A stretch of 64,000 nt of DNA from Maribellus sediminis (lineage in GTDB: Bacteria; Bacteroidota; Bacteroidia; Bacteroidales; Prolixibacteraceae), in assembly GCF_011799805.1 (NCBI RefSeq), contig NZ_WXUB01000001.1, positions 1 through 64,000 on the forward strand, read 5' to 3'. Shown in pieces: positions 11,176-27,264 of this stretch; position 1 is the first letter of the stretch; the number at the start of each line of letters is the position of its first letter. The notes under the pieces are model-generated. The model saw only the letters and a program-made list of their open reading frames with translations. It ran no database searches and had not been told where the DNA came from. The translations under genes were made by a program, and so were the position numbers.

Positions 11176-11703
11176 AATATTGGTTGTTTTGGTTTATGTC
11201 TTATTCTTTAATATTGGGTGCAATAAAATTATTACTAGCAAATCGGATGCATTGCTTATGATTTTACTTTACACTTACCCGTATGATAAATTGAAAATTG
11301 GTGCTTGAAATGTGTTGTTTTAATGTGTGTTAATATTTTATCTTTTGTTGGCTTCAAATTAATAAATGTATTTAACAAAATGAACAATAGTCATTAATTT
11401 AGAATTTATATAAACTATTATTCAGTTAATAATGAGAATCAAAAGATGAAGTATTTTTTGAATTATTATCATTTCAAATGTTGTCAATAAGCCTAAAAAT
11501 ATCTCTATCAGTAAAGCAATTTCTCAAAATGAATCAAACATCGAGTATTTCCTAAAGTAGATATAACCTAGACGTACTTTATGTCAAGAAACATTCTCAT
11601 TTTTTCCTTTGTATGCTCTTTATTTTCCTTACATAAGAATGTTCTGAAATTAATAGAGAGTAAGGATTTCAATAGTTATTTTTAGGAAAAGGTATTTCAA
11701 TTC
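11176..11703. other. Non-coding AT-rich gap upstream of the giant LRR gene
   Basis: This is the divergent region between the giant LRR gene (leftward) and the small GGRKKGTPNK gene (rightward). It is very AT-rich. I see no credible ORF, no RNA gene and no exact TAnnTTTG box for the LRR gene. Promoters for both flanking genes must lie here. Confidence 0.5.
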
Positions 11704-12018
11704 ATGGCAAATGGATATAAAACTGGAGGCAGAAAGAAAGGTACGCCAAATAAAGTGACAGGTACCGTTCGTGAGATGATTACCAAATCAATTTCAAAGG
11801 AATTGGAGTCATTACCGGTATTATTCAGTCAATTGGAGCCAAAAGAAAAAATGGATGCCCTAATCAAACTGATGCCTTATATTATTCCAAAAGCAGAAGT
11901 TTTAGCTGAAGATAGTTCTTCTCAACCAATGAAGCATGAAGATTTTGTTCAGAAAATCAGGAGAAAGATTGAAGAGATAAATCTTTCAAAAAGGGATACC
12001 GCAAGTTCAATTTCGTAG
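11704..12018 (+). CDS. Small GGRKKGTPNK-motif protein, possibly phage/mobile-element associated
   Basis: This 104-residue protein begins MANGYKTGGRKKGTPNK. The basic GGR.KGTPNK motif followed by an amphipathic helix and LEPKEKMDALIKLMPYIIPK resembles short DNA-associated proteins common in Bacteroidota prophages and mobile islands. I recall the family (DUF5681-like) but cannot name it firmly. It lies just outside the left att repeat (12088-12110), so it is not inside the element as defined here. It may belong to an older insertion at the same hot spot. The ATG at 11704 follows a short AT-rich leader without a clear Shine-Dalgarno site, as is usual in this phylum. The function is unknown. Confidence 0.6.
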   Translation: MANGYKTGGRKKGTPNKVTGTVREMITKSISKELESLPVLFSQLEPKEKMDALIKLMPYIIPKAEVLAEDSSSQPMKHEDFVQKIRRKIEEINLSKRDTASSIS

Positions 12019-12052
12019 TTTTTGTATCCCATTTGTATCTCATAAAATAAAA

Positions 12053-12082
12053 AAGCCTGACTATCAGTGGATAATCAGGCTT
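12053..12082 (-). terminator. Hairpin terminator, probably the original tRNA-Leu terminator
   Basis: Two 13-nt arms (12053-12065 and 12070-12082) pair with one mismatch around an AGTG loop. On the minus strand they are followed by TTTTTTATTTTAT. It sits directly downstream of the tRNA 3'-end remnant at 12088-12110, where the terminator of the uninterrupted tRNA would be. It may also end the plus-strand gene that stops at 12018. Confidence 0.65.
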
Positions 12083-12087
12083 TGCTT

Positions 12088-12110
12088 GTACCCGGGGCGG
12101 GAATCGAACC
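12088..12110 (-). repeat. Left attachment site: 23-bp copy of the tRNA-Leu 3' end
   Basis: This 23-bp sequence (plus strand begins gtacccgggg, ends aatcgaacc) is identical to 27180-27202, the T-loop and acceptor end of tRNA-Leu. On its right side (12111 onward) the T-stem no longer pairs and there is no tRNA body, so it is a remnant and not a gene. This is the pattern left by site-specific integration into a tRNA 3' end. Confidence 0.85.
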
Positions 12111-12159
12111 ACGCCCGTAATACACTTATAATCAATGTGTTATTTTAATGTAAATCGTG

Positions 12160-12167
12160 AGGTCTCG
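12160..12167 (+). repeat. AGGTCTCG motif at the left element end
   Basis: The same octamer as the right-end cluster (26921, 27031 inverted, 27058), 50 bp inside the left att repeat. It is a candidate arm-type site of the integrase. Confidence 0.5.
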
Positions 12168-12234
12168 TTTTTGTCTCTCACTGGTTCATTTTCAATATTT
12201 TATCGTTTAAAAATACGAAATTGTAACCACTTCT

Positions 12235-13515
12235 TCAAATGTTGATTAATTCCCACGGATGTAGATGAAGAATACCTTCATAGTTCGAATATTTCATATC
12301 ATCAAGAGAAACAACATACTTTTCATAGTTATCTTTTATCTGTAAAAGGTTGCCAAATTCCCTGTTTATAACATTTTCGTTGTTTAATAAATAGGCTACC
12401 TGAATATAAATTATCCTATCAGCCTTTTGGGCAATAAAATCAATCTCAAGATTATTTAATACTCCAACCTGCACTTCATATCCCAAACGTTTTAGTTGCA
12501 GATAAACGTAATTTTCAAGGTTATATCCGACATCTGTCGGTAAAAATCCAAACAAGAAATTTTTAAAAGCTAAATCATTCAGATAATATTTACAGGCACC
12601 TCCGAGTACTTGTTTCCCTCGCAAATTAAAACGATCTGCCTGATGAAAAATAAAGGCATCAGTTAAATACTGCACATAACTTGAAACAGTTTCGTAATTT
12701 GTTTTTTTCTGTTTGCTTTTAAAATAATTGATAATATTACTTATCGCTGTCAGGTTTCCGATATTTACCGCAAGGAACTTAAATAGTTCTTCCAGTAATG
12801 GTAGATCCTTAATTTTATGTCTGTCCAGTATATCGCGTAAAATGACAGTATTTTTTAAACTGGCTATGTAATTACGTTTAAGTTCTTCTGAATTAAGATG
12901 AAACAATTCAGGTAAACCTCCGGTTTTAAGATATTCAAGAAAACTTTCCTTTCCCAGAGTTAATTCCTTTACATCCAAAAATTCGGAGTAATCAAAAGGT
13001 AAAATCTCAAATTCAACATATCTACCTGATAGTAATGTTGCTAATTCTCCTGATAATAAAGTAGAGTTTGAGCCGGAAACAAATAGCTCGTATTCCTGTG
13101 TAAAATCCTGAGAATATGAATTAACAAAGGTTTCCCATCCTTCAATATTTTGCACTTCATCAAGAAATATATAGATTTTTCCTTCTACCTGTAGTTGTTT
13201 TCGATAAAAGGAAAACAATTCATCTAAGTCAGTAGCTTCTTGTATTTCATCAAATGCAATAAATTCCTTATTTAAAAAGAACAAATTCTTTGGATCAACA
13301 TTCTTATTCGTAATGAGGTAATTCATTATTTGTCGTAATAGATAACTCTTTCCGGATCGACGTTGACCTACCAGTACTTTTACTAAACGAGTATCCAAAA
13401 ATCCAGTTATTTTTTCAAGATATGGCTTACGCTCATAACCGATCTGTATTATTTGTCCTTCCCAGGCATTATATCTTTTTGTTTTCTCAAATATATTTGC
13501 AATTTTATCAGCCAT
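12235..13515 (-). CDS. AAA-family ATPase with DUF4143 C-terminal domain
   Basis: The 426-residue protein has a Walker A motif at residues 50-57 (GQRRSGKS), a Walker B at about 115-120 (IYIFLDE), the sensor-like stretch FVSGSNSTLLSGELATLLSGR, and a C-terminal half typical of DUF4143 (nuclease-like fold). The family is widespread in Bacteroidota and archaea and its role is unsettled; defence, toxin-like and DNA-repair roles have been suggested. It is the leftmost gene of the element, transcribed toward the left att site. The start is supported by a TATATTTG box at 13548-13555, which would give a leader of about 26 nt. It is probably accessory cargo, not needed for mobility. Confidence 0.85.
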   Translation of the reverse strand: MADKIANIFEKTKRYNAWEGQIIQIGYERKPYLEKITGFLDTRLVKVLVGQRRSGKSYLLRQIMNYLITNKNVDPKNLFFLNKEFIAFDEIQEATDLDELFSFYRKQLQVEGKIYIFLDEVQNIEGWETFVNSYSQDFTQEYELFVSGSNSTLLSGELATLLSGRYVEFEILPFDYSEFLDVKELTLGKESFLEYLKTGGLPELFHLNSEELKRNYIASLKNTVILRDILDRHKIKDLPLLEELFKFLAVNIGNLTAISNIINYFKSKQKKTNYETVSSYVQYLTDAFIFHQADRFNLRGKQVLGGACKYYLNDLAFKNFLFGFLPTDVGYNLENYVYLQLKRLGYEVQVGVLNNLEIDFIAQKADRIIYIQVAYLLNNENVINREFGNLLQIKDNYEKYVVSLDDMKYSNYEGILHLHPWELINI

Positions 13516-13547
13516 ATTTGAATTTATTTTGATTTGGTGTATTTTTT

Positions 13548-13555
13548 CAAATATA
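13548..13555 (-). promoter_or_regulatory. Bacteroidota -7 box (TATATTTG) for the ATPase gene
   Basis: An exact TAnnTTTG match on the minus strand, 33 bp upstream of the ATG at 13515. I see no clear TTTG -33 box at the usual distance, so this rests on the -7 box alone. Confidence 0.4.
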
Positions 13556-14174
13556 CTTGAATTTTATATATTTATTTAGATATTTTCAGACTTATTTGAA
13601 TTATTGTTTTGAAATTATATCTATTTGACCTTTACTGTCTATTCAATTCGACACATTAGCAATATTTTTGTCGATCCTAATCGACACTTTTATATCTAAA
13701 TTGGCGCACAAGCTATAAAAATCACTTTTGTTGCCCCAATATGGTCAGTTCAGACGATACAAACCTATACATTGATATAAGCAACCTGTTTGCATTTTCT
13801 AGATACACTTCATTTTCGAAGGACTTTTGGTATCATTGAAAAGAAGAATATTCCCATTTTCATTCATTTCCCAAAGCTATCCTTAATCCCAAATCGTAAA
13901 CACCGGCTCTTTCCAATTCAAGCATTAGACAAAAGGAAACGGAATAAATGGACTGAAAGATTGCGCCGGAGGACAGTAAATTGGCAAGTGTTTTTCCAAT
14001 GCTTTGATGCCAAGTCTCCTTTCGAAGTATGAGAAGGGTGTCTTGGCAGCAAAGAATACAAACAATTCCAAAACTCTTGTCAATTTGCTGGCTGCGTTTA
14101 TGCCGTAAGCTTTTGACGTTTGCCTGAATTGAAATTAATTTGTTGAAGATTTGGGAAACCCGCTTGTATGTAAT
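13556..14174. other. Non-coding region of the element with inverted repeats
   Basis: This lies between the ATPase promoter and the end of the relaxase gene. The left part is very AT-rich. An imperfect hairpin with tgccaag/cttggca arms spans 14008-14048, and a ttgg/ccaa pair flanks 13981-13998. A possible 80-codon ORF (13790-14032, plus) has a composition unlike a real protein (rich in R, F, H and P) and overlaps the hairpin, so I do not call it a gene. The region may hold a structural or transfer site. Confidence 0.4.
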
Positions 14175-15074
14175 TTACATCCTGTAACCCCTGCTTTTTT
14201 TCTTCGGTGGTTTTATTCTCTGGTACGGTTCCTTCTTTCGCTGTCTTTCTGCATCCTTCTCTGCCTGAAGAAGCCCGTCTCTGATTAATTGTTGAAAGTC
14301 ATACTCGTGGGATGGATTTTGTATGACCTTAAAATATTCCTGTAATTTGTTCTGATCCAATCGGTACTTTATTTTGGAGTAGCTAAACTGCCTGTCAACT
14401 TTTGAACCATTAAATCTCAGATTGTTTTTGGTAAACGAAATCCCCTGAACAACATTTGTATTCCCCCTGTATTTGTAGTTTATTGTTATCCCCTCTTTGT
14501 TCAGTTTAGCTTCCAGTTCATCCATATCTTTGCATTGGGGAATAAGTTCTTTAAGGCAGTAATAAATCTCATATTTTGTTTTGTCTGGTTCTTTCAGCCG
14601 GTGAACGTTTACATTTTCTTTTCCCTTGGCAAAATACAAGTCATTCTTTCGTGTAAGCTCTTTACAGATCTTTTCACTACGGTAACGATCGTTTTTATTG
14701 GATATCGTTTTCCCCTGGTTGTTTACCCTGTTAAAAACAATGTGAATATGAGGATGCTCCTTATCGTAATGCCGGGCTATTATAAACTGGGTATATATGA
14801 TTCCCATTCTGTTCAGGTAATCATCCGCAATTTTCAGAAGAAATACGCTACTAAGCTTTGCTTTATCCTGAACGGAGAAATCCAGGGAAATATGACCTAC
14901 CGGTTTGCTTACCCGCGAATTGAGTTCTGTTTGGGCGACAAAACTTTTTGTAATCGAATTCGTGTTTTTCAAACGTACGCCCTCTCCGATTAACAATTCA
15001 GCTGCTTTTTTTGGATCAAGGATATAATTTACTGCACCGGCAAAGTCTCCACCTGTTGTTATCTTGGCGATCAT
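14175..15074 (-). CDS. MobP-type relaxase (MobA/BmgA-like mobilization protein)
   Basis: The 299-residue protein starts MIAKITTGGDFAGAVNYIL, typical of Bacteroidota relaxases, with a candidate nicking tyrosine at residue 17. The metal-binding relaxase motif is at residues 102-111 (HYDKEHPHIH; H107, H109 and H111 in the HxHxH-type triad). The family cuts one strand at oriT and stays bound to it during transfer. The length is typical of small mobilizable elements and no type IV secretion genes are present, so transfer would need a helper. Its ATG overlaps the end of the mobC-like gene by 4 bp, a coupled pair. The basic C-terminus (RQRKKEPYQRIKPPKKKSR) may bind DNA. Confidence 0.9.
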   Translation of the reverse strand: MIAKITTGGDFAGAVNYILDPKKAAELLIGEGVRLKNTNSITKSFVAQTELNSRVSKPVGHISLDFSVQDKAKLSSVFLLKIADDYLNRMGIIYTQFIIARHYDKEHPHIHIVFNRVNNQGKTISNKNDRYRSEKICKELTRKNDLYFAKGKENVNVHRLKEPDKTKYEIYYCLKELIPQCKDMDELEAKLNKEGITINYKYRGNTNVVQGISFTKNNLRFNGSKVDRQFSYSKIKYRLDQNKLQEYFKVIQNPSHEYDFQQLIRDGLLQAEKDAERQRKKEPYQRIKPPKKKSRGYRM

Positions 15075-15415
15075 AGCATTTTGTTTATGATTCGGTCAAT
15101 TTTACGCGCAAGAAACAGGTATTCGCTACGAACGTGATCGTACCCTATGGCATTGGCTTTACGTGCAATCTGATTGAGGTTATTGGCCATTCCTGTAAGT
15201 TTTCTTATCTCAGCATTCAGTTCGGGTGTCAGGCGTTGAACAACCGTTGTATTCATAATTGAACGCCTGAGGAACTCACTTTGTGAAATCCCGGCTTCTG
15301 TTGATTTGCCAATTAGGCAGTAATATTCTACAGTCGACATTTTTACCGTTACCTTATATTTCATCTTCTCACCATCCAATTTTCGTGGACGGCCACCTTT
15401 GTTAAATTGCACCAT
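15071..15415 (-). CDS. mobC: MobC-like relaxosome accessory protein
   Basis: The 114-residue protein contains a GGRPRK basic patch, a ribbon-helix-helix-like segment (KYKVTVKMSTVEYYCLIGKS...ISQSEFLRRSI) and the conserved C-terminal LTGMANNLNQIARKANA block typical of MobC family proteins. Members bind near oriT and help the relaxase open the strands. It is the first gene of a two-gene operon with the relaxase (4-bp overlap). The upstream region (15416-15512) holds a perfect 8-bp inverted repeat and is the best oriT candidate. Confidence 0.85.
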   Translation of the reverse strand: MVQFNKGGRPRKLDGEKMKYKVTVKMSTVEYYCLIGKSTEAGISQSEFLRRSIMNTTVVQRLTPELNAEIRKLTGMANNLNQIARKANAIGYDHVRSEYLFLARKIDRIINKML

Positions 15416-15512
15416 ATTTTATTACCATTTTTTAGACCAACGGGATGCTAAATAGGAGTTTTGGTCTTACCAAAACATAAACTTGCTATCCTACCTCGAA
15501 AGGGGTATTTTC
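15416..15512. other. Candidate origin of transfer (oriT)
   Basis: This short region between the mob operon (leftward) and a small plus-strand gene contains a perfect inverted repeat, gttttggt-ctt-accaaaac (15458-15476), followed by ttgctatcctacc (15483-15495). TATCCT is reminiscent of the nic region of MOBP plasmids (RP4 nic is ATCCTG/C). Its position next to mobC is also usual for oriT. This is inference from position and motif only. Confidence 0.4.
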
Positions 15513-15749
15513 ATGAACATAAAGATAAAAAACAGAATAGACAAAGAAAACACTAAACTAATTCAATATCAATCAATTGCTATTGAATTTCAAAATGTAG
15601 AATTGGATCATATACTTCCAAACAATATTGATTCTTTATCAGGTTTACTTATAAACAGTAGGGAAAAATATTTTAATCAGTTAACATTTGGAACTTTCGT
15701 TTCTTTTATGAATGTAATTAAATCAAAATCTCATTTATACAATAATTAG
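15513..15749 (+). CDS. Hypothetical protein, 78 residues
   Basis: An open frame continues upstream to 15483, but the ATG at 15513 (MNIKIKNRIDKENTK) is preceded by gaaaggggt, a good ribosome-binding site, so I start it there. The product is hydrophilic with no signal peptide or membrane segment and ends SFMNVIKSKSHLYNN. I do not recognise it. It diverges from mobC, within the mobile element. It may be a small regulator or a decayed remnant. Confidence 0.4.
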   Translation: MNIKIKNRIDKENTKLIQYQSIAIEFQNVELDHILPNNIDSLSGLLINSREKYFNQLTFGTFVSFMNVIKSKSHLYNN

Positions 15750-15794
15750 ATCACTTCTCCGAAATAGTTTTACTAAAGCATAAAATACTATCTT

Positions 15795-15923
15795 ATGGAA
15801 AAGAAAAATAACATGAATAGCATCAGATTTATTGATTCATTCCCGGATGAGAATAATATAGGGAGCATTTTCATTAAGTTAGGGAAAAGGAAGGAATTGT
15901 ATACAAAACAAGGATGTAATTGA
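15795..15923 (+). pseudogene. Possible remnant of an IS1595/ISXO2-type transposase N-terminus
   Basis: This 42-codon frame reads ...RFIDSFPDENNIGSIFIK and then KLGKRKELYTKQGCN before a stop. IS1595-family transposases begin with F..FPDE..C...F...R...G..C..CG. The FPDE motif and the KQGC end fit that pattern loosely, but the zinc-ribbon cysteines are mostly missing. If the reading is right, it is a broken transposase start. The match is from memory of the family pattern and is weak. Confidence 0.25.
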
Positions 15924-15957
15924 GGAAAAATTGGAGTAGGCAAACGATACACCTGTA

Positions 15958-15975
15958 AAGACAAATTGACCAAGT
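15958..15975 (+). repeat. 18-bp direct repeat, left copy (flanks cargo)
   Basis: aagacaaattgaccaagt is repeated exactly at 25508-25525, in the same orientation. The similarity continues more weakly for about 12 bp to the right (CCC.AC.GGAA on this side). The two copies bracket the adhesin, sensor kinase and regulator genes. Confidence 0.7.
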
Positions 15976-16121
15976 GAACCCAACCGGAAAAATGTCAAAC
16001 TTTTGTTTGACTATTTTGAGGCTAGCTTGAAGTTTATGAATACAGAGATACACAAGAAAAAGCTTAAATTGAAGTAAGTGGAGGAATAGTATCTTTGATT
16101 CATTTAGCAGATTGGGTAGTA

Positions 16122-19100
16122 CTAATATTTAATCAATAAATAGGTAGACATGGATTGGTCCCTTCCAAATATTCTAAGAATATATGTACCGCTAACAAAA
16201 TTCAGGTTTTTGATCACTAACTCGTCCCCATCAATATTTTTAGTGAGAACGATGTTGCCGGTCATATCCAGAATCTCAATTTTGCTGTAATCTTCTGATG
16301 GTAATTCAACAACTAAGTGGTCATGAACAGGATTTGGATAAACCCGAATATCTTTTTCTGATAATTCCACAACAGATGTCGTAGTACAGGTATCTGCAAT
16401 TGTAAGATTTAGCATTGCAATACTGTCACAACCAGCAATATTTGTAAATATCGACTGATAATCCCCGGATGCGGTATAGGTGTTTCCATTCCACTCGTAG
16501 TTATTGCATACAGCAACCGTGTCATGAGAATAACTTGGTTCCAATATATTCAGATTTAATATCACCACTGAGTCACATCCTACTGAGTTGGTCAAAGTAT
16601 ACGTGGCCGTGTTGTTACTTTCGGTATAGGTCACGCCGTCAATCCAGGTGTAGCTTTCGCATTCAGTGGCTACATCTGTTCCTGTTGTCGGTTCAAGGAT
16701 GGTAAGATTTAGCGTTACGACGCTGTCACATCCGTTCTGATTTGTATACACAGTCTGGTATTGTCCCGAAGTGGTCAGCACATTTCCGTCGAACACATAA
16801 CTGCCACAAGACGATGTGTTCATCGTTACACTGTCCGGCTTTGTGATGGTCAGGTTCAGTGTCACCACCGAATCACATCCTGCAGAACTGGTTAAGGTGT
16901 ACGTTGCGGTATTATTACTTTCGGTGTAAGTAATTCCATCAATCCAGGTATAACTTTCACAGACTGAAATCACATCTGTCCCCATTGACGGTTTAAGAAT
17001 TGTAAGGTTCAAAGTAACTACACTGTCGCATCCTGACTGATTTGTAAAAGTAGCCTGATATTGTCCTGAGCTAGTTAAAACGTTTCCATCAAACACATAG
17101 CTCTCGCAAGCCTCCTTATCTATTGTTACATTATCTGATTCCCCGATAGTGAAGTCTAAAGTAACTACTGAATCACACCCCTGTGCACTGGTTAAGGTGT
17201 ACGTTGCGGTGTTATTGCTTTCGGTGTAGGTAATTCCATCAATCCATGTATAACTTTCACAGGCTGAAATCACATCGGTTGCCGTTAAATTTTCAAGGAT
17301 GGTAAGGTTCAAAGTAACTACACTGTCGCATCCGTTCTGATTGGTAAAAGTTGCCTGGTACTGTCCCGAAGTGGTCAAAATGTTTCCATTAAAGGTATAG
17401 CTTTCGCAAGCTTCTTTATCTATTGTTACATTATCTGATTCCCCGATAGTGAGGTCTAAAGTAACTACTGAATCACACCCCTGTGCACTGGTTAAGGTGT
17501 ACGTTGCGGTGTTATTGCTTTCGGTGTAGGTAATTCCATCAATCCATGTATAACTTTCACAGGTTGAAATTACATCGGTCCCGGTTAAAGTTTCAAGGAT
17601 GGTAAGGTTCAAAGTAACAATCGAATCGCAACCCTCAGAATTTGTCAACGTGTAGGTTTCTGTGTTGTTGCTTTCGGTATAAGTGACACCGTCGATCCAG
17701 GTATAGCTTTCGCAAGCCGAAATCACATCTTCGCCATAGCTTGGTTCAAGAATCGTAAGGTTCAAGGTAACAAGTGAATCACAACCTTCGGCATTAACCA
17801 AAGTGTAGGTTGCGGTGTTGTTGCTTTCGGTATAGGTGATGCCATCTATCCAGGTGTATTCATTACATGCTGTTTGATAGTCAAAACTTGTTGGTGTGAT
17901 AAACGTCCAACCCGATGTATTTCCCGAATCATCACTATTGTTTGCAATGAACGATGCACCTCCGGTTACCACAACGTTATTAATATGCCAATAATTCCCT
18001 TTTGCACTTCCACTCTCGGAATGGATATATGCAGGGTCTGAAGTATTTGATTCAATTGTAACCAAGTCATTACAACTGGTTCCATCAGCCAATTCTAAAG
18101 TATCAATTGTTTGGGTCAGTCCTCCGGGTAATTGAATGGTTGAAGCATTGGGAACACTCAATATTACAAATGTGTTTGAACCGTATAATGAAAAAGAACT
18201 ACTACTGATACCTGTTAATTTGTAATAATTCAGACCACCAGGTATGCATTGGGATTGACCGCAAATAACTTCTGAGGTACCGGGATTGATTGTCATATTT
18301 GTAGCATCTTCAATAAACCAAAAACCAGCGCAGTTAATAGTTGAACTTCCCATGTTCCAAACCCTGTTATTGGGCTGATCAGAATTCAGGCTGAAGAATT
18401 CCATATCATAATCGTTTGTATTCAGGGTACCTTTAACGAAATGAAGATCTTTGTTTATACTACTCATTTTAAACTCTGAGGCCAAATTCCATTCACCGCT
18501 TCCGTCAAAATATACATTTTGATTGAGTAAATTTCCGCGTGTGTTGATCACATTCCCTGTTTCATCTGACTTGAAGTATAAATTTCCATTAAAGGAATGG
18601 TAAGTATATATGCCTGATATATCAAATGATCCGTAAACATTAAGATCTGAAGTACCCTCTATTCTTCCCCAACCACCTGTTCCGGAGAAATCAAAATTCC
18701 GGCAAGAGGCATCTTCATCAATGGTTACAGTTCCATTAATATTATCAAATGAATGCTCATCAAAAACCACATCGTCATAAAAATTGGGGATACATCCACC
18801 GTTCCCGGAGCCGCCACTGCTTAATGCCCAGTGATCGGGATCACTCCAGTTCCCATGATGCCCTACCCAGTAATAGGTGGTTGATGAAAGGGCATTAAAG
18901 ATCCAACCATCATTGTTTCCCCCATCCACTCCATTATTGTCAATAAAAACAGCTCCACCGGAGGTGTGTATATCCTGTAGTTGTACATAATCAACTGAAA
19001 GGGTCCCTGATGCCTTGGTTATTGTAGCTTCCGAACCAGGGGTTTGCGATTGTATAACGGTAAGATTACTACAGGAACCTGTAGCTGATATCTTATCAAT

Positions 19101-22100
19101 GGCAACAGAAATACCGGCTTCTAATGACAAGTTTAATCCCGGATTAATGTATAGTGAGTCTATGGAGGCATTCCCGTACATTTTCACCGTGCCGGAACCT
19201 GTCAACGATACGTAATGATAATTCTGAGATCCGGTATACAGGGTTGAGCCCGACAGCCGGATCGTTGCGGTGCTTGCATCTATGTTCAGATTGCTACTGT
19301 TGGAGAAAAGCCAGTTTTGTGCTGTGATCAGGGATGTGCCCAGGTTCAGGTTCCTGATACCGGAGCCTCCTCCGCCCATATTGCTATTCAGAGAAATCGT
19401 ATGATCATTGGTATTCAATGTTCCGGTAGTCAAATATATTGACCGTAAAGAAAGGTCACTTTGAAGATCCCATTCACCGGATCCGACAAAATAAAATAAT
19501 GCAGAAGTAATACTGTGTCCGTTCATATGGATGCTATTCCCGGCAACGTCAGAAGAGAAGTATATGCTTTTGTTTGCAATGACCGTCATGTCGGTTGCAG
19601 AGGCAAGAATCAACGAGCCGCCTATATGCAAATCGTAAGATGTAGCCTGTAAGGTAGGATTATTGGTCACTCCTGTCCAATCCATAGAATTGCAGGACGC
19701 TTCCGTATTAAACATTACAGTTTGAGAGGCAGCCGTAAAAGAATTAGCGTCAAAAAATACATTGTCACCTGAAGAAGGCGTGCAGGTACCATTCCCTGTA
19801 CCGCCGCTACTTGTTGCCCAATGATTTGGGTCATCCCAGTCTCCGGAGCCGCCTACCCAGTAATAATCTGTTGAACCAGACGGTTCATTGATGATCCAGT
19901 TGGTCACATTCCCAAGATCAACACTGTTATTGGCTGTGAATGTAGCTCCGCCTGTGATTCCGATATCTTTGATGCTCAGGTATTCGTTGATAACGGTCCC
20001 GCTTTCTTTGGAAATATAAGCCTGGCTGCCCGGGGTATCAGACTGGATGGTTACATTTTGTGCACAGCTACCATTCACCATGAGATTATTTATCTGAGTG
20101 GTGCTTCCTGCTTCAAAGGTAACGCTTGCAACATTTTCAAACGAAAGATCATGAAATACTGGGGCATTAAATATTTCATAATTGCTCAGCCCTGCCACAG
20201 ATTTAAAATGAACGTCGTAAAACTCCAAACCGATGGCATTAAACGTGTCATCTGTTATGTTAAAGGTTGATGTCCCTGCATCAAGATGAATCATATTCGA
20301 GAAGAAAAATCGTATATCATCGACATTGATGATGGAAGAACCAAGGTTCAGATAGACGACATCGGTAAAAGGAAAAACGGCCAGGGCATTAGTGTTAATA
20401 TCATAATTGTTGGTATTTAGTGTACCATATCCAATTGAAATACCATTTTCTCCGGAAATATTCAGATCCGATTCCAACGTATAATCGCCATATCCATAGA
20501 AGTCAATAATACTGGCATTGAGGTTAATTCCCGCAAAATCAAGGGTATTACCTGCAACATCCGATATTAATTCAAGATTTCCTGTGAAGCTGGCAGTCAT
20601 TCCGGGAATCAGCTTTATTGAACCATACACCCATAAATCGCTCGAGCCTGCCAGATCAGGTGCATTTGTCGTTCCTGTCCAGTCCAAATTTTTACATTCA
20701 GCTTCAGCATCAATGGTTACTATTTGGCCTGCAAGTGAAAATGAGTTCGCATCAAAAAACACGTCATCATCCTGAGTAGGAGGTGTGCTGTGGAAGGTTG
20801 ATCCACCTGAGGTGGTTGCCCAATGCGAAACATCTGACCAGTTTCCGCCATTGCCTACCCAATAATGACCCGGAACAGGTTCAGATAAAGAAAATACCCT
20901 TGCTGCGCCTCCAGAACTATAAAAGACTGTGTTTTCGGGGCAGCCGACAACCAGGTTGCTTCCATCGGCGGTTAACGAAACATAACTACCAAAAATATAT
21001 TTCGTCGATCCACCCCAAATGGTATCACCTACAATGTTCCAATTGGAGCCATCCCAGTCCAAAACCTGAACACAACCCTCTCCACTTATTGTTTCAGGAT
21101 CAGCATGGTTCACATTGTATTCGTCTCCGATTGCAATTCTGTTACCATTTTCCGAAATATCTAAACCACTCCCAAAATGAGTACCACCTTTAGTACCATA
21201 AAGCGGGCCTCCTTTCAAATTCCAGTTCGTTCCATCATATTCATATATCCATACCGTATCGTCCCACTGGCTTGAATACGCCATGGTTCTGCCATCATCT
21301 GATAACCTGACAATATCACCGGCAGCTGCGTTTTTGGATGCATCAGTAAAGGTTGTTCCCAGAACAGACCAATTGCTGCCATCCCAGGTATAAACCGTTG
21401 CACTCCCTGCATTTTCGTATACCGCATCATCGGCCGAAGCGCCAATTACTATTGTATGTCCCAAATAATCGAAGTCGATGGACCGGCCAAAATTGGCCGC
21501 CGGACCCCATGATTCTATGTCGTTTCCCATCTGGTTCCAGGTTGAACCATCCCATTGATAAATTCGAACAACACCTTTGTTTCCTGAACCCAAAACTTCA
21601 TCTTGATAACTTATTGCCAAAACATCACCCGACGCAGACATTGCCACATCCTGCCCACATTTGTCACCGGTATTGGCTCCAACAAAAGTGTTTCCTTTTT
21701 GTACCCATGATGCTCCGTCCCAACTCCAAACTTTAACAATCCCGGAGCCAGTAAGGTCAATTCCTCCACCGGCAATGGTCGTTCCGTCAGCACTCATCGA
21801 AATACTAAAACCAAATAACTCCTTACTTGCTCCTGCACCGGTTAAATCAGATCCCATTTGGTTCCAGACTGAGCCATCCCATGAAAAAACACGAACTGCA
21901 CCTGCAAGATATGCGACCGAGCTTTCGCCCAGTATTCCAAAGGCCATAATCGAGCCATCGTCGCTTATCTCCACCTGGTATCCAAGACCTTGATTAGCTG
22001 CATCTCCAAAGAAATCATCACCTACCTGGTTCCAATCCTGGCCGTGTGATATCATTGTTATTAATGCTAATTGAAGAACGAGCAATGTCCTCTTCAAAAT

Positions 22101-22106
22101 TCGCAT
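16122..22106 (-). CDS. Large mosaic T9SS-secreted adhesin-like protein (~1994 residues)
   Basis: The frame opens at 22268, but MRILKRTLLVLQLALITMISHGQ at 22106 is the signal peptide and a TATCTTTG box at 22208-22215 rules out the upstream ATG. Residues ~22-410 hold propeller-like repeats (DG..WNQ.G...G / S.DG..MA.G). Three ~330-residue modules follow, each opening YYWVG..G.W.D..HWA.SSGG and then VFFD.NSF (near 20.88, 19.87 and 18.88 kb). Ten ~50-residue repeats CESYTWIDGITYTESNN..GCDS.VTLNLTI cover 16.4-17.9 kb, each with a conserved pair of cysteines. The C-terminus (DIRVYPNP...SGTYILRI) is a type A T9SS sorting domain. It is most likely a cell-surface or secreted adhesin, carried as cargo of the mobile element and divergent from a sensor-kinase operon. 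Confidence 0.88.
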   Translation of the reverse strand: MRILKRTLLVLQLALITMISHGQDWNQVGDDFFGDAANQGLGYQVEISDDGSIMAFGILGESSVAYLAGAVRVFSWDGSVWNQMGSDLTGAGASKELFGFSISMSADGTTIAGGGIDLTGSGIVKVWSWDGASWVQKGNTFVGANTGDKCGQDVAMSASGDVLAISYQDEVLGSGNKGVVRIYQWDGSTWNQMGNDIESWGPAANFGRSIDFDYLGHTIVIGASADDAVYENAGSATVYTWDGSNWSVLGTTFTDASKNAAAGDIVRLSDDGRTMAYSSQWDDTVWIYEYDGTNWNLKGGPLYGTKGGTHFGSGLDISENGNRIAIGDEYNVNHADPETISGEGCVQVLDWDGSNWNIVGDTIWGGSTKYIFGSYVSLTADGSNLVVGCPENTVFYSSGGAARVFSLSEPVPGHYWVGNGGNWSDVSHWATTSGGSTFHSTPPTQDDDVFFDANSFSLAGQIVTIDAEAECKNLDWTGTTNAPDLAGSSDLWVYGSIKLIPGMTASFTGNLELISDVAGNTLDFAGINLNASIIDFYGYGDYTLESDLNISGENGISIGYGTLNTNNYDINTNALAVFPFTDVVYLNLGSSIINVDDIRFFFSNMIHLDAGTSTFNITDDTFNAIGLEFYDVHFKSVAGLSNYEIFNAPVFHDLSFENVASVTFEAGSTTQINNLMVNGSCAQNVTIQSDTPGSQAYISKESGTVINEYLSIKDIGITGGATFTANNSVDLGNVTNWIINEPSGSTDYYWVGGSGDWDDPNHWATSSGGTGNGTCTPSSGDNVFFDANSFTAASQTVMFNTEASCNSMDWTGVTNNPTLQATSYDLHIGGSLILASATDMTVIANKSIYFSSDVAGNSIHMNGHSITSALFYFVGSGEWDLQSDLSLRSIYLTTGTLNTNDHTISLNSNMGGGGSGIRNLNLGTSLITAQNWLFSNSSNLNIDASTATIRLSGSTLYTGSQNYHYVSLTGSGTVKMYGNASIDSLYINPGLNLSLEAGISVAIDKISATGSCSNLTVIQSQTPGSEATITKASGTLSVDYVQLQDIHTSGGAVFIDNNGVDGGNNDGWIFNALSSTTYYWVGHHGNWSDPDHWALSSGGSGNGGCIPNFYDDVVFDEHSFDNINGTVTIDEDASCRNFDFSGTGGWGRIEGTSDLNVYGSFDISGIYTYHSFNGNLYFKSDETGNVINTRGNLLNQNVYFDGSGEWNLASEFKMSSINKDLHFVKGTLNTNDYDMEFFSLNSDQPNNRVWNMGSSTINCAGFWFIEDATNMTINPGTSEVICGQSQCIPGGLNYYKLTGISSSSFSLYGSNTFVILSVPNASTIQLPGGLTQTIDTLELADGTSCNDLVTIESNTSDPAYIHSESGSAKGNYWHINNVVVTGGASFIANNSDDSGNTSGWTFITPTSFDYQTACNEYTWIDGITYTESNNTATYTLVNAEGCDSLVTLNLTILEPSYGEDVISACESYTWIDGVTYTESNNTETYTLTNSEGCDSIVTLNLTILETLTGTDVISTCESYTWIDGITYTESNNTATYTLTSAQGCDSVVTLDLTIGESDNVTIDKEACESYTFNGNILTTSGQYQATFTNQNGCDSVVTLNLTILENLTATDVISACESYTWIDGITYTESNNTATYTLTSAQGCDSVVTLDFTIGESDNVTIDKEACESYVFDGNVLTSSGQYQATFTNQSGCDSVVTLNLTILKPSMGTDVISVCESYTWIDGITYTESNNTATYTLTSSAGCDSVVTLNLTITKPDSVTMNTSSCGSYVFDGNVLTTSGQYQTVYTNQNGCDSVVTLNLTILEPTTGTDVATECESYTWIDGVTYTESNNTATYTLTNSVGCDSVVILNLNILEPSYSHDTVAVCNNYEWNGNTYTASGDYQSIFTNIAGCDSIAMLNLTIADTCTTTSVVELSEKDIRVYPNPVHDHLVVELPSEDYSKIEILDMTGNIVLTKNIDGDELVIKNLNFVSGTYILRIFGRDQSMSTYLLIKY
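16385..17890 (-). repeat. Ten ~50-residue Cys repeats (CESYTWIDG...GCDS)
   Basis: Two subtypes partly alternate along the array: a W type (ESYTWIDGITYTESNN) and an F type (ESYVFDGNVLTTSGQY), both closing with GCDSVVTLNLTI. Several copies are near-identical at the DNA level (compare 17150-17290 with 17450-17590), so the array can expand or contract by recombination. Each repeat has two cysteines that could form a disulfide. Confidence 0.8.
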
Positions 22107-22207
22107 ATTTCTGATATTCTCAGTAGTTAATAATAGAGAATTCGCATGGTCTGATATTCGGTTCTTTTTCATGATGGTTTTACTCGGGTTTGTAATTGTC
22201 CATGTTA

Positions 22208-22215
22208 CAAAGATA
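22208..22215 (-). promoter_or_regulatory. Bacteroidota -7 box (TATCTTTG) for the adhesin gene
   Basis: An exact TAnnTTTG match on the minus strand. Transcription would start near 22201, leaving a leader of about 95 nt to the ATG at 22106 (or 30 nt to an in-frame ATG at 22172). No good -33 box is seen. Confidence 0.4.
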
Positions 22216-22306
22216 TTTATGCTCCGGCGTTTGGAAAAAGTATTCAACGAACACCGTAATTCCATCACTGTACCTTACCGTTTAATCACTTTTGTCGTTT
22301 TTGATA

Positions 22307-22314
22307 TATATTTG
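22307..22314 (+). promoter_or_regulatory. Bacteroidota -7 box (TATATTTG) for the TPR sensor kinase operon
   Basis: An exact TAnnTTTG match. Transcription would start near 22321, giving a 30-nt leader to the ATG at 22351. TTTA at 22281-22284 is a possible weak -33 element. Confidence 0.45.
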
Positions 22315-22350
22315 GGATGGGAGAATTTTATTTCACTTGCTTAATGACCT

Positions 22351-24645
22351 ATGATTAGATTCATCATTTACCTGATATTGATTTTTTGTTGTCTATTGTG
22401 TAATAACCTACAGGCTCAAAATACTGCCATTGATAGCCTTGAAAACCTGCTGCAAAAAGCAGAACATGACACAATAAAAATTGAATTATTGCAAAAGTTA
22501 GGGAAGGAATACAATATTGTTTTTAATCACCAAAAAGCACTGGAATTATTCTATGAGCAGTTAGACCTAACGAAAAATTACAGCAATATAGAAGGTGAAA
22601 TGAAAGCGTATTCAAATTTAGGATATACTTTCAGAATGCTATCTGACTTTAAACTTGCCTTAGCTTATTGTGATTCATCTTTGGAGATCTCATATAACCT
22701 GAACGATGATCCTTGGATAGCCTATTTGTTGAACATGAAAGGGGCAGTCTATAATAATTTAGGAGATTGGTCAAAAGCAATTGAAAATTTTCAAAAATCA
22801 CTTGAAAAAGAAGAAGAGCTAGAACCAAGAAATTTACAGCGAATTGCATATAAATATAGCAACATAGGAAGCATTTACACAAAAGCTGGTAACTATACTG
22901 AAAGTCTTAGGTATTTCCAAAAAGCTTTGAAATTACAGGAAAATGATAAAAATGAATTATTCAAAGCCCGAACCTTAAATAATATGTCAAGGCTTTATTA
23001 TTATTTAGGGAACTATTCATTAGCTCTTGAAGGTTACCAGAAAGCATTACAGATAAAGCAAAAACTCAATCAAAAGCATGAAGTGTTATCAACAATAGGA
23101 AGTATTGCAAATGTCTATAAATCGCAAGGTAATTATGATAAGGCTTTACAATACCTTAGGCAGGCTATTAAATTAAGTGAAGAATATGGGTACAAAAATG
23201 CGATTCTTTCTTCTCAAAGAGGTATAGGAGAAGTATATCTTTCGCAAAATATTTATGATTCGGCCTATTACTATTTTAATAAAACTTTATCAAACAGCAT
23301 TGAAATTGGTGCTAAAACTGAAATTGCCCAAGCATACAGATCCTTTGGTGATTATTATGCTAAATTAAATGACAATCCGAAAGCATTGGAAAATTACAAA
23401 GAATCCCTTGCCGTGCTTGAGGAAATTAATCATCAAAGTCGAATTGCAATGACATTGGTTGATATTGGTGAGATATATTACAATATGGGCCTTATTGACG
23501 ATGCCATTAAGAATTGTGAAAAAAGTTTGGAAATTGCAACGCAGAAAAAGCAGAAATTACAAATTCGAAAAGCGAGCAATATTCTAGCAAAGTGCTATGC
23601 AGCAAAAGATGATTACAAAAGCGCCTATAATTACCATATACTGTTTAAACAAACCCACGACAGTATTTTTACAGAAGAAAATGTAAAAAAAGTCGCTGGT
23701 GTTGAAGCTGGATATGAACTTGAGCGAAAGGAAAACGAAATCGAATTACAGAAATCCGCCATCGAGAAACAAGATATTATTATCAAACAACAGCAGACCC
23801 GTCAGAAAGCACTTTGGGGTGGATTGTTTGCAGTATTTGTTATTGTTGTTATTGCAGGTATGGCTTATTTCCGAATTCGAAGTGCCAACCAACAAATCAT
23901 AATTCAAAAAGCTGAAATTGAGACCCAAAACAAAGAACTGGAAAAACTGAATAAACTAAAGGACAAAATGTTCTCCATAATTGGTCACGATTTGCGGGCT
24001 CCGCTTGCCAATTTAAGTACATCGTTAGGAATAATGACCAGCGGGCAGTTTGACCAGTCTCCAGAAAAAGAGGAAAAACTGTTTCAACTACTTTCAGCAG
24101 GGACACAATCGGCATTGGGTTTATTGGAGAACCTTTTAACCTGGTCGCGAAGCCAGCAAAATACCATGGCCTTTTCACCCGAAACAATTCATTTATCAGA
24201 AGTTGTTGATGAAACCTTCAGCCTTTTGCTTACAAGTGCGGTCAACAAACAAATTGAACTAAAATCGGAAGTTCCTGAAGACCTTTCAGTATATGCTGAT
24301 AAAAATATGATCAAAACAGTTATCAGGAACCTGGTAAGCAATGCTATTAAATTCTGCAATGAAAATGGTAAGATTGAGGTGTTCTCAAAAACCTATACCG
24401 ATAAAATTGAAATAGGAGTAAAGGACAACGGAATTGGCATTTCAGAAGAAAATTTATCCAAAGTGCTAAATCCAAACGAGCATATAACAACACATGGTAC
24501 TAAAAAGGAGAAAGGAGCTGGTTTGGGATTAATTATCTGCAAAGAATTTATTGAAAAAAACAACGGAACTATAAGAGTTGAAAGCAAACCAGGTGAAGGA
24601 AGTACTTTTTTTATTACTTTGCCAATAAGTAACGATAGTGACTAA
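22351..24645 (+). CDS. TPR-sensor histidine kinase
   Basis: The 764-residue protein has a signal peptide (MIRFIIYLILIFCCLLCNNLQAQN). About ten tetratricopeptide repeats follow (residues ~30-440; e.g. NLGDWSKAIENFQKSLE, AGNYTESLRYFQKALK), then a coiled coil and one membrane helix (~487-507, WGGLFAVFVIVVIAGMAYF). The cytoplasmic part is a HisKA domain with the phospho-accepting His near residue 546 (SIIGHDLRAPLA) and a HATPase_c domain (NLVSNAIKF, DNGIGIS, KGAGLGL). The TPR part should be periplasmic and act as sensor. It sits 11 bp upstream of a LytTR response regulator, its likely partner, and diverges from the large secreted protein. Both genes are mobile-element cargo. Confidence 0.92.
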   Translation: MIRFIIYLILIFCCLLCNNLQAQNTAIDSLENLLQKAEHDTIKIELLQKLGKEYNIVFNHQKALELFYEQLDLTKNYSNIEGEMKAYSNLGYTFRMLSDFKLALAYCDSSLEISYNLNDDPWIAYLLNMKGAVYNNLGDWSKAIENFQKSLEKEEELEPRNLQRIAYKYSNIGSIYTKAGNYTESLRYFQKALKLQENDKNELFKARTLNNMSRLYYYLGNYSLALEGYQKALQIKQKLNQKHEVLSTIGSIANVYKSQGNYDKALQYLRQAIKLSEEYGYKNAILSSQRGIGEVYLSQNIYDSAYYYFNKTLSNSIEIGAKTEIAQAYRSFGDYYAKLNDNPKALENYKESLAVLEEINHQSRIAMTLVDIGEIYYNMGLIDDAIKNCEKSLEIATQKKQKLQIRKASNILAKCYAAKDDYKSAYNYHILFKQTHDSIFTEENVKKVAGVEAGYELERKENEIELQKSAIEKQDIIIKQQQTRQKALWGGLFAVFVIVVIAGMAYFRIRSANQQIIIQKAEIETQNKELEKLNKLKDKMFSIIGHDLRAPLANLSTSLGIMTSGQFDQSPEKEEKLFQLLSAGTQSALGLLENLLTWSRSQQNTMAFSPETIHLSEVVDETFSLLLTSAVNKQIELKSEVPEDLSVYADKNMIKTVIRNLVSNAIKFCNENGKIEVFSKTYTDKIEIGVKDNGIGISEENLSKVLNPNEHITTHGTKKEKGAGLGLIICKEFIEKNNGTIRVESKPGEGSTFFITLPISNDSD

Positions 24646-24656
24646 TTTAATAATTA

Positions 24657-25376
24657 ATGCAAATTAATTGTATTTCCATAGATGATGACCCGGTAGCCCT
24701 AATGAATATTGAACAGTTTATTACTGTTACTCCTTTCTTGAACCTTATAGCAACCTGCGAAAGTGCTTTTGCTGCAATGGAGGTTTTAGATAGAGATAAA
24801 GTCGATTTGATTTTCACAGATATTGACATGCCGGAACTTAACGGGATGGAATTTGTAAAATCGTTACTGAACATGCCAAAGGTAGTTTTTACTACATCAC
24901 ACAAAGAATTTGCTGTTGAAGGATTTAGGGTTGATGCGATCGACTATTTAGTGAAACCATTTGATTATAGCCGATTCTTAAACGCAGCAAACAAAGCAAA
25001 GAAAATCATCGGTTCAATTGGCCTGGAAAACAAAGTACAATCTGAAAACAATGACCATATTTTTGTTAAATCAGATTATATGATTCTTAAAGCTAAATTT
25101 GACGATATCAAATATATCCAAGGAATGCATGAGTATGTTCAAATTCACTTTTTGACCCAAAAACCGATAATGACCCTAATTAGCTTAAAAAAACTTGGTG
25201 AGCAATTACCTGGAAATAAGTTTATGCGTGTTCACAAATCATACATTGTAAATCTTAACCACATCACCACTATTGAACGCAATAAAATAGTCTACCAAGA
25301 TAATGTGAGGATTCCTGTGGGTGAGAGTTTTAAAAAGAAATTTCAGGAATTTATTGATAAAAAATTACTTGGTTAA
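24657..25376 (+). CDS. LytTR-family response regulator
   Basis: The 239-residue protein begins MQINCISIDDDPVAL. It has a receiver domain with the phospho-acceptor Asp55 (LIFTDIDMPELNG), the switch Thr (VVFTTSHKEF) and the conserved Lys (YLVKPFDYSRF). A LytTR DNA-binding domain fills the C-terminal half (~135-239: IFVKSDYMILKAKFDDIKYIQGMHEYV..., FMRVHKSYIVNL). The LytTR family binds direct repeats in promoter regions and often controls surface proteins. It is co-transcribed with the TPR kinase. The divergent adhesin gene is the obvious candidate target, but I did not find a clear LytTR site in 22107-22350. Confidence 0.93.
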   Translation: MQINCISIDDDPVALMNIEQFITVTPFLNLIATCESAFAAMEVLDRDKVDLIFTDIDMPELNGMEFVKSLLNMPKVVFTTSHKEFAVEGFRVDAIDYLVKPFDYSRFLNAANKAKKIIGSIGLENKVQSENNDHIFVKSDYMILKAKFDDIKYIQGMHEYVQIHFLTQKPIMTLISLKKLGEQLPGNKFMRVHKSYIVNLNHITTIERNKIVYQDNVRIPVGESFKKKFQEFIDKKLLG

Positions 25377-25698
25377 ATTTGTTCCGCCAGTTTTTATTGA
25401 TTATACTCCATTTTTGTATATATCGGGAAGGTGAGTGTTTTCCACTCAATCCGGTATTGCCAGGATAAGATTATTGAATTATGAATTTGAATAAAAACAG
25501 AGGTATGAAGACAAATTGACCAAGTTATCCCGACGGAACTTGAACCAGCGTCGCAATCGTACCAATATGGAAAATCATTAATCTACAACTAAATACCACA
25601 AATAATATAAAAATTGACTTTTGTATAGCTTCTTGAATATAAATTTTTGATTGCACTTTAAGTATCTCGCAATAAAACAAAACTGATAAATTACATTT
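25377..25698. other. Gap between cargo and integrase
   Basis: No gene is visible. It contains the right copy of the 18-bp repeat (25508-25525). Next to it, 25526-25560 reads on the minus strand like a decayed tRNA T-arm (GCTGGTTCAAGTTCCG), but there is no tRNA body. Confidence 0.45.
25508..25525 (+). repeat. 18-bp direct repeat, right copy (flanks cargo)
   Basis: Exact copy of 15958-15975. See the finding on the nested cargo. Confidence 0.7.
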
Positions 25699-26898
25699 TT
25701 AAATCAAACCTCTTATTTTCTTAATATCCTCCGAAATTTTCGTATCGAGAATACGGGCATAAATTTGTGTAGTCTTTAGTGAACTATGTCCTAAAATCTT
25801 GGAAACGGTTTCAATAGGTACCCCATTGGTTAATGTTATTGTTGTTGCAAATGTATGCCTGGCTACATGCATTGATAGATTTTTTTTAATTCCGCATATA
25901 TCAGCAATTTCTTTTAAATATGCATTCATTTTTTGGTTTGAATTCACTGGCAGCAATAGCCCTTTTGAAACATTTATTGGATAGTTTTTATAGCGCTTCA
26001 GAATGCTTTTTGCAGCAGGCAATAATGGAACTCTGCATCTTGATCCATTTTTTGTTCGGTCTATAATAATCCATTTATTACCATCGTTTCCGGTTCTTAT
26101 ATGTTGTTTTGCCAACTTTGAAATATCAGCATAAGACAGTCCTGTATAACAGGCAAATAGAAAAATGTCTCTAACAATAGCAAGCCGTTCAATCTCAATC
26201 TTTTTTTTCCTTATTTTCTTTAATTCCTTTTGAGTTAAAAATTCACGTTTCGGTTGTTCTGTTTTTACCTGAAACTTTAGATACGGATTCGTTGAAAGAT
26301 AATCCATGGCAACTGCAATATTCAATACTTTCTTCATGTGTTTATGATAACACCAGGCAGTATTTACACTGTTGTTGTATTTGGTTTTTAGGTATACATC
26401 AAAATCATTAATAAACTTATAACCTATGTAGCTAAGGTTCCACTCCTTCTTCCCATAGACGTCAGATAAAAAGTTTAAAAGCCGGTTTTTTGAGGTTTTA
26501 TAATGTTTGAGCGTTGTAGCTGAAAATCCTTTGCCAATATTTGATTCAATCGTGTTCATATAAACACCAAACATTTCAACTATTCCATGCTCTTCTTCTA
26601 TGCCGCAAAGTTTGTTTTTAATATCAACTACATCAAACTTTTTGTTCCCGGCTTCAAACTGATTATAAATATCAAGAATATTAGAAGCTACTTTATCAAG
26701 ACGATTATTAGTTGTCTTCGCTAAACTTGATGAGCCAGTCATTCTTTCTTTTGATATATCCCAGGAATTCTGATCAACAAATATCTTTGTCGATAATTCA
26801 GCACGTTTTCCATTGAGCGTAAACCTGACATAAACGGGGTAAGTTCTGTCTTCCCGCTTCTTTGATTTTTTAAGTAAAAATGCAATTGTAATCCTCAT
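25699..26898 (-). CDS. Tyrosine recombinase (integrase) of the mobile element, IntDOT-like
   Basis: The 399-residue protein has the Bacteroidota arm-binding N-terminus (MRITIAFLLKKSKKREDR..YPVYVRFTLNGKRAELST), a SAM-like core-binding domain (~110-200) and a catalytic domain. Visible active-site residues are the beta-hairpin Lys (DRTKNGSRCRVPL), HVARH, LGHSS and the nucleophile Tyr380 (TTQIYARI). The first catalytic Arg is replaced by Ser255 (CYTGLSYADI), as I recall for IntDOT of CTnDOT. It reads away from the adjacent tRNA-Leu, the usual layout for an element that integrates in a tRNA 3' end. AGGTCTCG repeats in its promoter region and at the far element end may be its arm-type sites. Confidence 0.93.
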   Translation of the reverse strand: MRITIAFLLKKSKKREDRTYPVYVRFTLNGKRAELSTKIFVDQNSWDISKERMTGSSSLAKTTNNRLDKVASNILDIYNQFEAGNKKFDVVDIKNKLCGIEEEHGIVEMFGVYMNTIESNIGKGFSATTLKHYKTSKNRLLNFLSDVYGKKEWNLSYIGYKFINDFDVYLKTKYNNSVNTAWCYHKHMKKVLNIAVAMDYLSTNPYLKFQVKTEQPKREFLTQKELKKIRKKKIEIERLAIVRDIFLFACYTGLSYADISKLAKQHIRTGNDGNKWIIIDRTKNGSRCRVPLLPAAKSILKRYKNYPINVSKGLLLPVNSNQKMNAYLKEIADICGIKKNLSMHVARHTFATTITLTNGVPIETVSKILGHSSLKTTQIYARILDTKISEDIKKIRGLI

Positions 26899-26920
26899 AA
26901 TCCATAAATTTTAACAATTT

Positions 26921-27065
26921 AGGTCTCGCTCACTGTCTAAAAATACATTATAAATGCCACTTTTGAAACAGTAAAACGAACCAAATTAAACCAATTAAAA
27001 TGAAATGAATCAGCGAGTTACAGTGTTTAGCGAGACCTATCGAGTCTATTTAACCATAGGTCTCG
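26921..27065. repeat. Cluster of AGGTCTCG motifs at the right element end
   Basis: aggtctcg occurs at 26921-26928 and 27058-27065 and, inverted, at 27031-27038. A perfect 10-bp inverted repeat (aggtctcgct / agcgagacct) links 26921-26930 and 27029-27038, and cactg/cagtg halves lie nearby. A fourth copy lies at the left end (12160-12167). These are candidate integrase arm or excisionase sites and may also control the integrase gene, since they lie just upstream of its ATG. Confidence 0.55.
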
Positions 27066-27123
27066 ATTTTGTCGCATTTTAGATGCTTTTAAAGCACTTT
27101 TATTGATATTTATGCTAAATAAA

Positions 27124-27155
27124 AAAGCGCTTAAATCATTGATTTTAAGCGCTTT
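27124..27155 (-). terminator. Hairpin terminator downstream of tRNA-Leu
   Basis: Arms aaagcgcttaaa (27124-27135) and tttaagcgcttt (27144-27155) pair perfectly. On the minus strand they are followed by TTTATTTAG. It ends tRNA-Leu transcription just inside the element, so the element brings its own terminator while the original one lies at 12053-12082. Confidence 0.7.
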
Positions 27156-27179
27156 TAATGTTTTTTGGTATTTCACCAA

Positions 27180-27202
27180 GTACCCGGGGCGGGAATCGAA
27201 CC
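27180..27202 (-). repeat. Right attachment site within tRNA-Leu
   Basis: The 23 bp at the 3' end of the tRNA are identical to 12088-12110. Sequences diverge immediately on both sides, which fixes the crossover segment to this interval. Confidence 0.85.
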
Positions 27203-27264
27203 CGCACTCCGTTGCCAGAACTGGATTTTGAATCCAGCGCGTCTACCAATTCCGCCACCCGGGC
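27181..27264 (-). tRNA. tRNA-Leu (anticodon CAA)
   Basis: This is an 84-nt class II tRNA. The acceptor stem pairs GCCCGGG (27264-27258) with CCCGGGT. The anticodon stem is ctgga/tccag with loop TTCAAAA, anticodon CAA at 27230-27228. There is a long variable arm, and the T-arm reads GCGGG-TTCGATT-CCCGC. CCA is not encoded. Its 3' end (27180-27202) is the integration site of the mobile element and is duplicated at 12088-12110. Confidence 0.95.

Follow-up and report, generated by a model that had tools for sequence, protein, structure and literature searches.

What places a second copy of a tRNA end 15 kb away from the gene to which it belongs? In a contig of Maribellus sediminis (NZ_WXUB01000001.1), the 23-mer GTACCCGGGGCGGGAATCGAACC, the 3′ end of tRNA-Leu(CAA), occurs as exact copies at positions 12088-12110 and 27180-27202, with a repeat-to-repeat distance of 15,092 bp. 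The window, the whole stretch of DNA analysed here, is the first 64 kb of the contig; position 1 is the contig end, and the left neighbourhood is therefore visible only to that point. The segment between these direct repeats (DRs) is very probably an integrative and mobilizable element (IME), on the evidence of its DR-bounded anatomy, its conserved ends, its mobilization genes and its relatives in the same tRNA of other species. The tRNA-Leu(CAA) gene is intact (27180-27264, minus strand; Rfam tRNA, 61 bits) and adjoins the integrase side, where the element supplies its last 23 bp; the far attachment site lacks a tRNA body, and ARAGORN finds no tRNA at 12088. The genome contains no other match to the 23-mer within two mismatches and only two with three mismatches each, both on another contig, and 100 shuffles of the window yielded none. 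The sequence-only reading of this locus had described an exact 23-bp duplication with the intact tRNA beside the integrase and a remnant on the far side, and both descriptions hold.

The integration module comprises a Pfam-recognized integrase, the exact DRs and a set of arm-type repeats. In particular, the tyrosine integrase (25699-26898, minus strand) carries Arm-DNA-bind_5, SAM_5 and Phage_integrase domains, and among 80 relatives of this integrase from named genomes, 49 are located no more than 1.5 kb from a tRNA. Judged by eye, a serine replaces its first catalytic arginine, in CYTGLSYADI. The repeat AGGTCTCG is present at 12160-12167 (plus strand, left end), 26921-26928 (plus), 27031-27038 (inverted, minus) and 27058-27065 (plus), so that all four copies in the 64 kb sit at most 300 bp inside the two element ends. 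The chance of this placement is 8e-9, for a zone picked after the copies had been seen, and the count of four alone is unremarkable, being reached in 2 of 100 shuffles. The same four offsets recur in Draconibacterium sediminis (G002) and D. orientale (G006), and the three right-end copies recur in G042 and G049; we infer that they are arm sites of the integrase. An extended arm consensus, AGGTCTCGNTNNNTGTC, was rejected, as it matched one site only and 53 of 100 shuffles equalled that.

Pfam confirms the MobC/relaxase pair that had been read from the sequence: a 299-aa MobA/VirD2-like relaxase (14175-15074, minus strand) and a MobC/NikA-like relaxosome protein (15071-15415, minus strand). The relaxase is a candidate MOBP type, exceeding the Pfam Relaxase cut-off and matching NCBIfam Bacteroid_MobB (2.6e-30) and TraI_MobP (1.4e-20), both under their curated cut-offs; its best plasmid relatives show 49% identity over 84%. 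Upstream of mobC, a candidate origin of transfer (oriT; 15432-15487, minus strand) consists of the inverted repeat TTTTGGT-ACCAAAA followed by GCATCCCG, which resembles MOBP nick regions. This arrangement is kept in nine relatives, including three whose MobC is only 59-63% identical. As a search pattern it gave 11 matches in 6 of 41 genomes and none for a reversed control, although nine of the 11 were already in the alignment that gave the pattern, leaving one in G006 and one in G013 outside it. The element thus has its own relaxase and, at the sequence level, its own candidate oriT. As the sequence-only reading had stated, type IV secretion genes are lacking: Pfam finds no mating-pore or other secretion component among the seven main proteins, shorter open reading frames (ORFs), mostly overlapping these genes, not being searched. 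The four arm-type repeats, the oriT and the position of the window at a contig end are additions to that reading.

Several observations accompany the mobilization module. The D. orientale genome has two oriT copies near tRNA-Leu (L056 and L072, contig positions 1888435 and 1875376) and no relaxase above 26% identity, and these copies resemble orphan transfer origins. In G013, tRNA-Pro(GGG) (L207, 1286-1361) has an oriT copy at a distance of about 8.7 kb, which may mark a further insertion of the family. A stretch downstream of the relaxase gene (13866-14035) is 89-94% identical in related mobilization modules, a conservation above that of the relaxase gene in most comparisons, and looks non-coding. 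Neither a coding signal (variable columns by codon position of 9, 15 and 11) nor a conserved fold (energy inside the shuffled range on both strands) was supported for it.

From this anatomy we infer an integration reaction in which the integrase joins a circular attP to the tRNA-Leu(CAA) 3′ end by recombination, the crossover probably falling in the T-arm. The element's copy would replace the last 23 bp of the tRNA and, because the replaced bases are identical, the tRNA would stay intact while acquiring the terminator that the element brings. Transfer would begin with excision of the circle by the integrase and nicking of the oriT by MobC and the relaxase; the strand would then exit through a type IV secretion system provided by a helper element within the same cell. 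The cargo, which here consists of a giant type IX-secreted protein and a kinase-regulator pair, would change between relatives as the ends stay, and each later insertion would enter beside the tRNA and move the older ones outward.

DR-bounded elements occupy tRNA-Leu(CAA) in D. sediminis (16,639 bp), D. orientale (19,351 bp), D. mangrovi (G010; 23,325 bp) and G052 (18,561 bp), so that five genomes, the element's own included, have the DR pair and the same inner ends. Two proposals made from the sequence alone, insertion at a specific site in the 3′ end of tRNA-Leu and the IME class, are thereby supported. The left inner end (12111-12222) is kept in relatives, and together with the DR it shows 88-95% DNA identity with G006 and G024. 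The same inner end follows the displaced tRNA copy in the window and in six relatives (G002, G006, G010, G024, G051 and G052); the left copies of G003 and G049 are more diverged, and that of G051 lies in a contig-end region. Where intact, the integrases of the four same-site elements are 87-96% identical to this one. The G002 and G052 elements retain mobC, relaxase and oriT, as in the window; the G006 element keeps the oriT and has lost the mobilization genes; the G010 element has a broken integrase and neither mobilization genes nor oriT. The integrases of G003 and G008 are likewise broken or fragmentary, and G024 holds a DR-bounded remnant of 2,017 bp. The remnants of about 2 kb in G049 (L218) and G024 (L061) have tRNA ends on either side of a DUF4143 ATPase and carry neither an integrase nor mobilization genes. 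Extra partial tRNA-Leu copies were also observed 5′ of the intact tRNA in G016 (L222, 10637) and G024 (C3, 1015742-1015778).

The cargo of these elements is unrelated from one to the next. The D. sediminis element carries a LuxR-type regulator and enzymes; the D. mangrovi element carries a TonB-dependent receptor, SusD, FecR and FAD oxidoreductases; and the D. orientale element holds a whole fructan-like locus, with GH36, two GH32, SusD, a SusC-type receptor, PfkB, a transporter and a hybrid two-component regulator. SusC/SusD-type genes are therefore present in two of the five DR-bounded elements at tRNA-Leu(CAA). The D. orientale type of glycan locus sits outside the left DR in G002, G010 and G024, and near the same tRNA in G013, and therefore cannot be treated as plain element cargo; in 6 of 25 genomes its SusD shows an identity of 94% or more.

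Substitutions at fourfold-degenerate sites suggest that the element has likely been transferred between species. Chromosomal genes set the reference (pgk 43-57%, holB 37-49%, MFS 37-53%), and integrase identity exceeds it in G002 (77%), G006 (70%), G010 (75%) and G042 (92%), as does that of the DUF4143 gene relative to G002 (98%). Because of this excess, the comparison supports transfer of these integrases and of DUF4143 after the species split; it supports transfer between species, not its route. Across six elements, the corresponding values are 63-73% for mobA, the relaxase gene, and 62-80% for mobC.

Further, the mobilization module adjoins four other tRNA genes, with protein identities of 78-94%. 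At tRNA-Leu(GAG) of G010 it accompanies an integrase 56% identical to this one, and a second tRNA end of 17 bp lies 22.7 kb away; at tRNA-Pro(GGG) of G002 the integrase is 39% identical, and a second tRNA end of 26 bp with one mismatch lies at 16.3 kb. In G013, the module occurs at tRNA-Pro(CGG), with an integrase of 44% identity, and at tRNA-Gln, where no integrase was found; neither element has a far DR within about 31 kb. The relaxases at these other tRNAs are 78-88% identical and, except for the Gln copy, no lower than those of the same-site relatives (86-88%). We put forward, tentatively and with slightly less than even confidence, that a single transfer module, made up of MobC, the relaxase, the oriT and the conserved 170-bp stretch, has been coupled to different integrases and tRNA genes in a Draconibacterium IME family, that this family contributes to the spread of polysaccharide utilization loci from species to species, and that the tRNA-side terminator records the order of insertion.

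The terminators themselves had been read as an element bringing its own hairpin and displacing the original. The terminator-like hairpin inside the element lies at 27124-27157 and the displaced one, outside it, at 12053-12082, with fold energies of about -15 to -16 kcal/mol (27116-27165) and -17 to -19 kcal/mol (12046-12090), respectively. Sequence adjacent to the tRNA was read in 28 of 37 Draconibacterium genomes, the element's own counted among them, with G005 left out as holding a displaced copy. The first half of the claim stands, as the element's terminator type is present at 10 of these 28 sites. The second half is only a possibility, because tRNA-adjacent hairpins differ among species, G024 is itself no clean empty site but holds its 2,017-bp remnant, and what was displaced here may be the hairpin at one end of an earlier insertion instead of the original terminator. 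The proposed search for an empty site succeeded for other elements, whose displaced hairpins match tRNA-adjacent ones strongly (G010 with G024, 82; G052 with G024, 69; G051 with G011, 68; 99% null of 21-22), and gave a weaker result for the window, whose best score is 38, with G024 and G018 (null 20-22); that of G006 with G024 is 35 (null 22). In G002 the displaced hairpin is of the element's own type, beyond the left DR, and belongs to an older layer. The stretch 12019-12087, which includes the window's displaced hairpin, matches the displaced left flanks of G006 (80-82%), G003 (80%) and G049 (79%) over 92 bases including the repeat, and a looser form of it abuts the tRNA in G016 (74%); the window's displaced hairpin therefore formerly adjoined the tRNA. 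In the 37 genomes, only the last 92 bases of the left flank and stray short pieces find a match, and no clean empty site was therefore found for this insertion. A 104-aa ORF of the left flank was discarded as a synteny marker, its matches in four relatives besides its own genome being 25-40% identical.

Some of these results weigh against an IME that moves between species at this site, and they bear on the other explanations of the locus. The left flank beyond about 12019 occurs in no relative; no excisionase was identified in the element; integrase identity at fourfold sites is no higher than that of chromosomal genes in G052 (56%) and G003 (38%); the one Bacteroidetes transfer family searched for, TraJ (PF07863), has no match in the element's own genome, with 7 of 25 genomes matched and, in a search that had no positive control, 0 of 14 control genomes; and in G005 the left end next to a displaced 23-mer (L266, 121-143) is unrelated and contains GGTGGGA motifs in repeated form, with no tRNA within 9 kb. 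The last is the one instance found of the pattern that the sequence-only reading had named as counter-evidence, a displaced repeat beside unrelated DNA. It is in keeping with a repeated tRNA end that arose by chance or by assembly duplication, unrelated to integration, a notion to which the further partial copies in G016 and G024 also lend something; the recurrence of one inner end after the displaced copy in the window and six relatives leaves it scarcely credible. The G005 copy probably belongs to a different family of elements that uses this tRNA. G001 offers a parallel, with an integrase only 25-27% identical beside the gene, and several families sharing the site would fit both cases. It is also highly improbable that the segment is a satellite phage or another non-conjugative island with the same type of integrase. 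Tyrosine integrases at tRNA genes are common to prophages and satellites, but MobC, relaxase and a conserved oriT recur together in the related elements, and Pfam finds no phage protein among the seven main proteins (PHROGs was not searched).

Two further explanations accept an IME origin and differ in its history. One holds that the element is a fossil that integrated like an IME and has lost the ability to excise or transfer. The decay of its same-site relatives, in the integrases of G003, G010 and G008, the mobilization genes of G006 and the 2-kb remnants of G024 and G049, is in keeping with this, as is the missing TraJ match; yet in the window the integrase, MobC and relaxase each have an open reading frame, the two DRs match exactly and none of the four arm repeats is missing, and we regard such a loss as rather unlikely. 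The other holds that the DR-bounded element is the newest layer of a composite island, with 1-12087 an older insertion at the same tRNA, and here the balance is even. The left flank has a lower G+C content (0.369 over 1-11175) than the right flank (0.429), 12019-12087 recurs beside displaced attachment sites in three genomes, the element's terminator has its second copy beyond the left DR in G002, and G006 has a second arm repeat, an oriT and a DUF4143 piece 31 kb from the tRNA. Conversely, 1-12087 shows no second intact DR and no integrase, library searches there having covered the 104-aa ORF only (no family), and the contig start puts the far end beyond view.

The remaining genes of the element are its cargo and an ATPase. 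The AAA_14/DUF4143 ATPase (12235-13515, minus strand; Pfam) matches the PADLOC candidate defence family PDC-S01 (6e-139), itself a predicted family, and is 99% identical to the G002 copy; three 23-nt repeats with 39-base spacing (13502-13602) lie at and upstream of its start. The cargo comprises a 2048-aa repetitive protein (16122-22268, minus strand), whose only domain is a type IX secretion C-terminal sorting domain, a TPR sensor histidine kinase (22351-24645, plus strand) and a LytTR response regulator (24657-25376, plus strand), both assigned by Pfam. At an E-value threshold of 1e-120, none of the 36 other genomes of the genus yields a match to the kinase. In G+C content the backbone and kinase parts (0.32-0.34) lie below the giant gene (0.42) and the right flank (0.43). 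Beyond the element, the minus strand of 1-11175 has a frame of at least 3725 aa with many leucine-rich-repeat-like segments, cut by the contig start.

IMEs are already known to accrete, to leave decayed cis-mobilizable remnants, to exchange modules and, in the case of NBU1, to integrate into tRNA-Leu. According to PMC10865867 and PMC8138268, which describe the IntCTnDOT subgroup, NBU1 is located in tRNA-Leu, and the element here likewise occupies the 3′ end of such a gene. A further likeness is that NBU1 has a MobP relaxase mobilized by Bacteroidetes integrative and conjugative elements (ICEs), according to PMC5704250; here, in contrast, MobC and a 299-aa relaxase are separate. The first catalytic arginine is present in NBU1, NBU2 and Tn4555 and absent in CTnDOT and Tn5520 (PMC8138268), so that the integrase here, with its serine, differs from the first three. 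The element is accordingly set beside NBU1 by description, not by sequence, and is not filed as NBU1-type. Also comparable are the same-site Draconibacterium elements (G002, G006, G010 and G052), alike in tRNA, DRs and inner ends. PMC5704250 also describes accretion at tRNA genes, cis-mobilizable elements (CIMEs) and module exchange, and the likeness extends to decayed remnants keeping attachment sites and newer elements beside the target gene; these were described there mainly in streptococci, whereas here the tRNA-side terminator also records the last entrant. A literature search found no paper that links glycan-use loci to mobilizable elements inserted at tRNA genes, and the papers retrieved for Draconibacterium and 'integrative' were, by their titles and the openings of their abstracts, not about mobile elements.

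For this environmental genus of Bacteroidota, the comparison points to reuse of one mobilization module in combination with several integrases and tRNA sites, and the defined ends, arm repeats and oriT are now available as testable features. If glycan-use loci do move inside related elements, IMEs as well as ICEs would be their vehicles.

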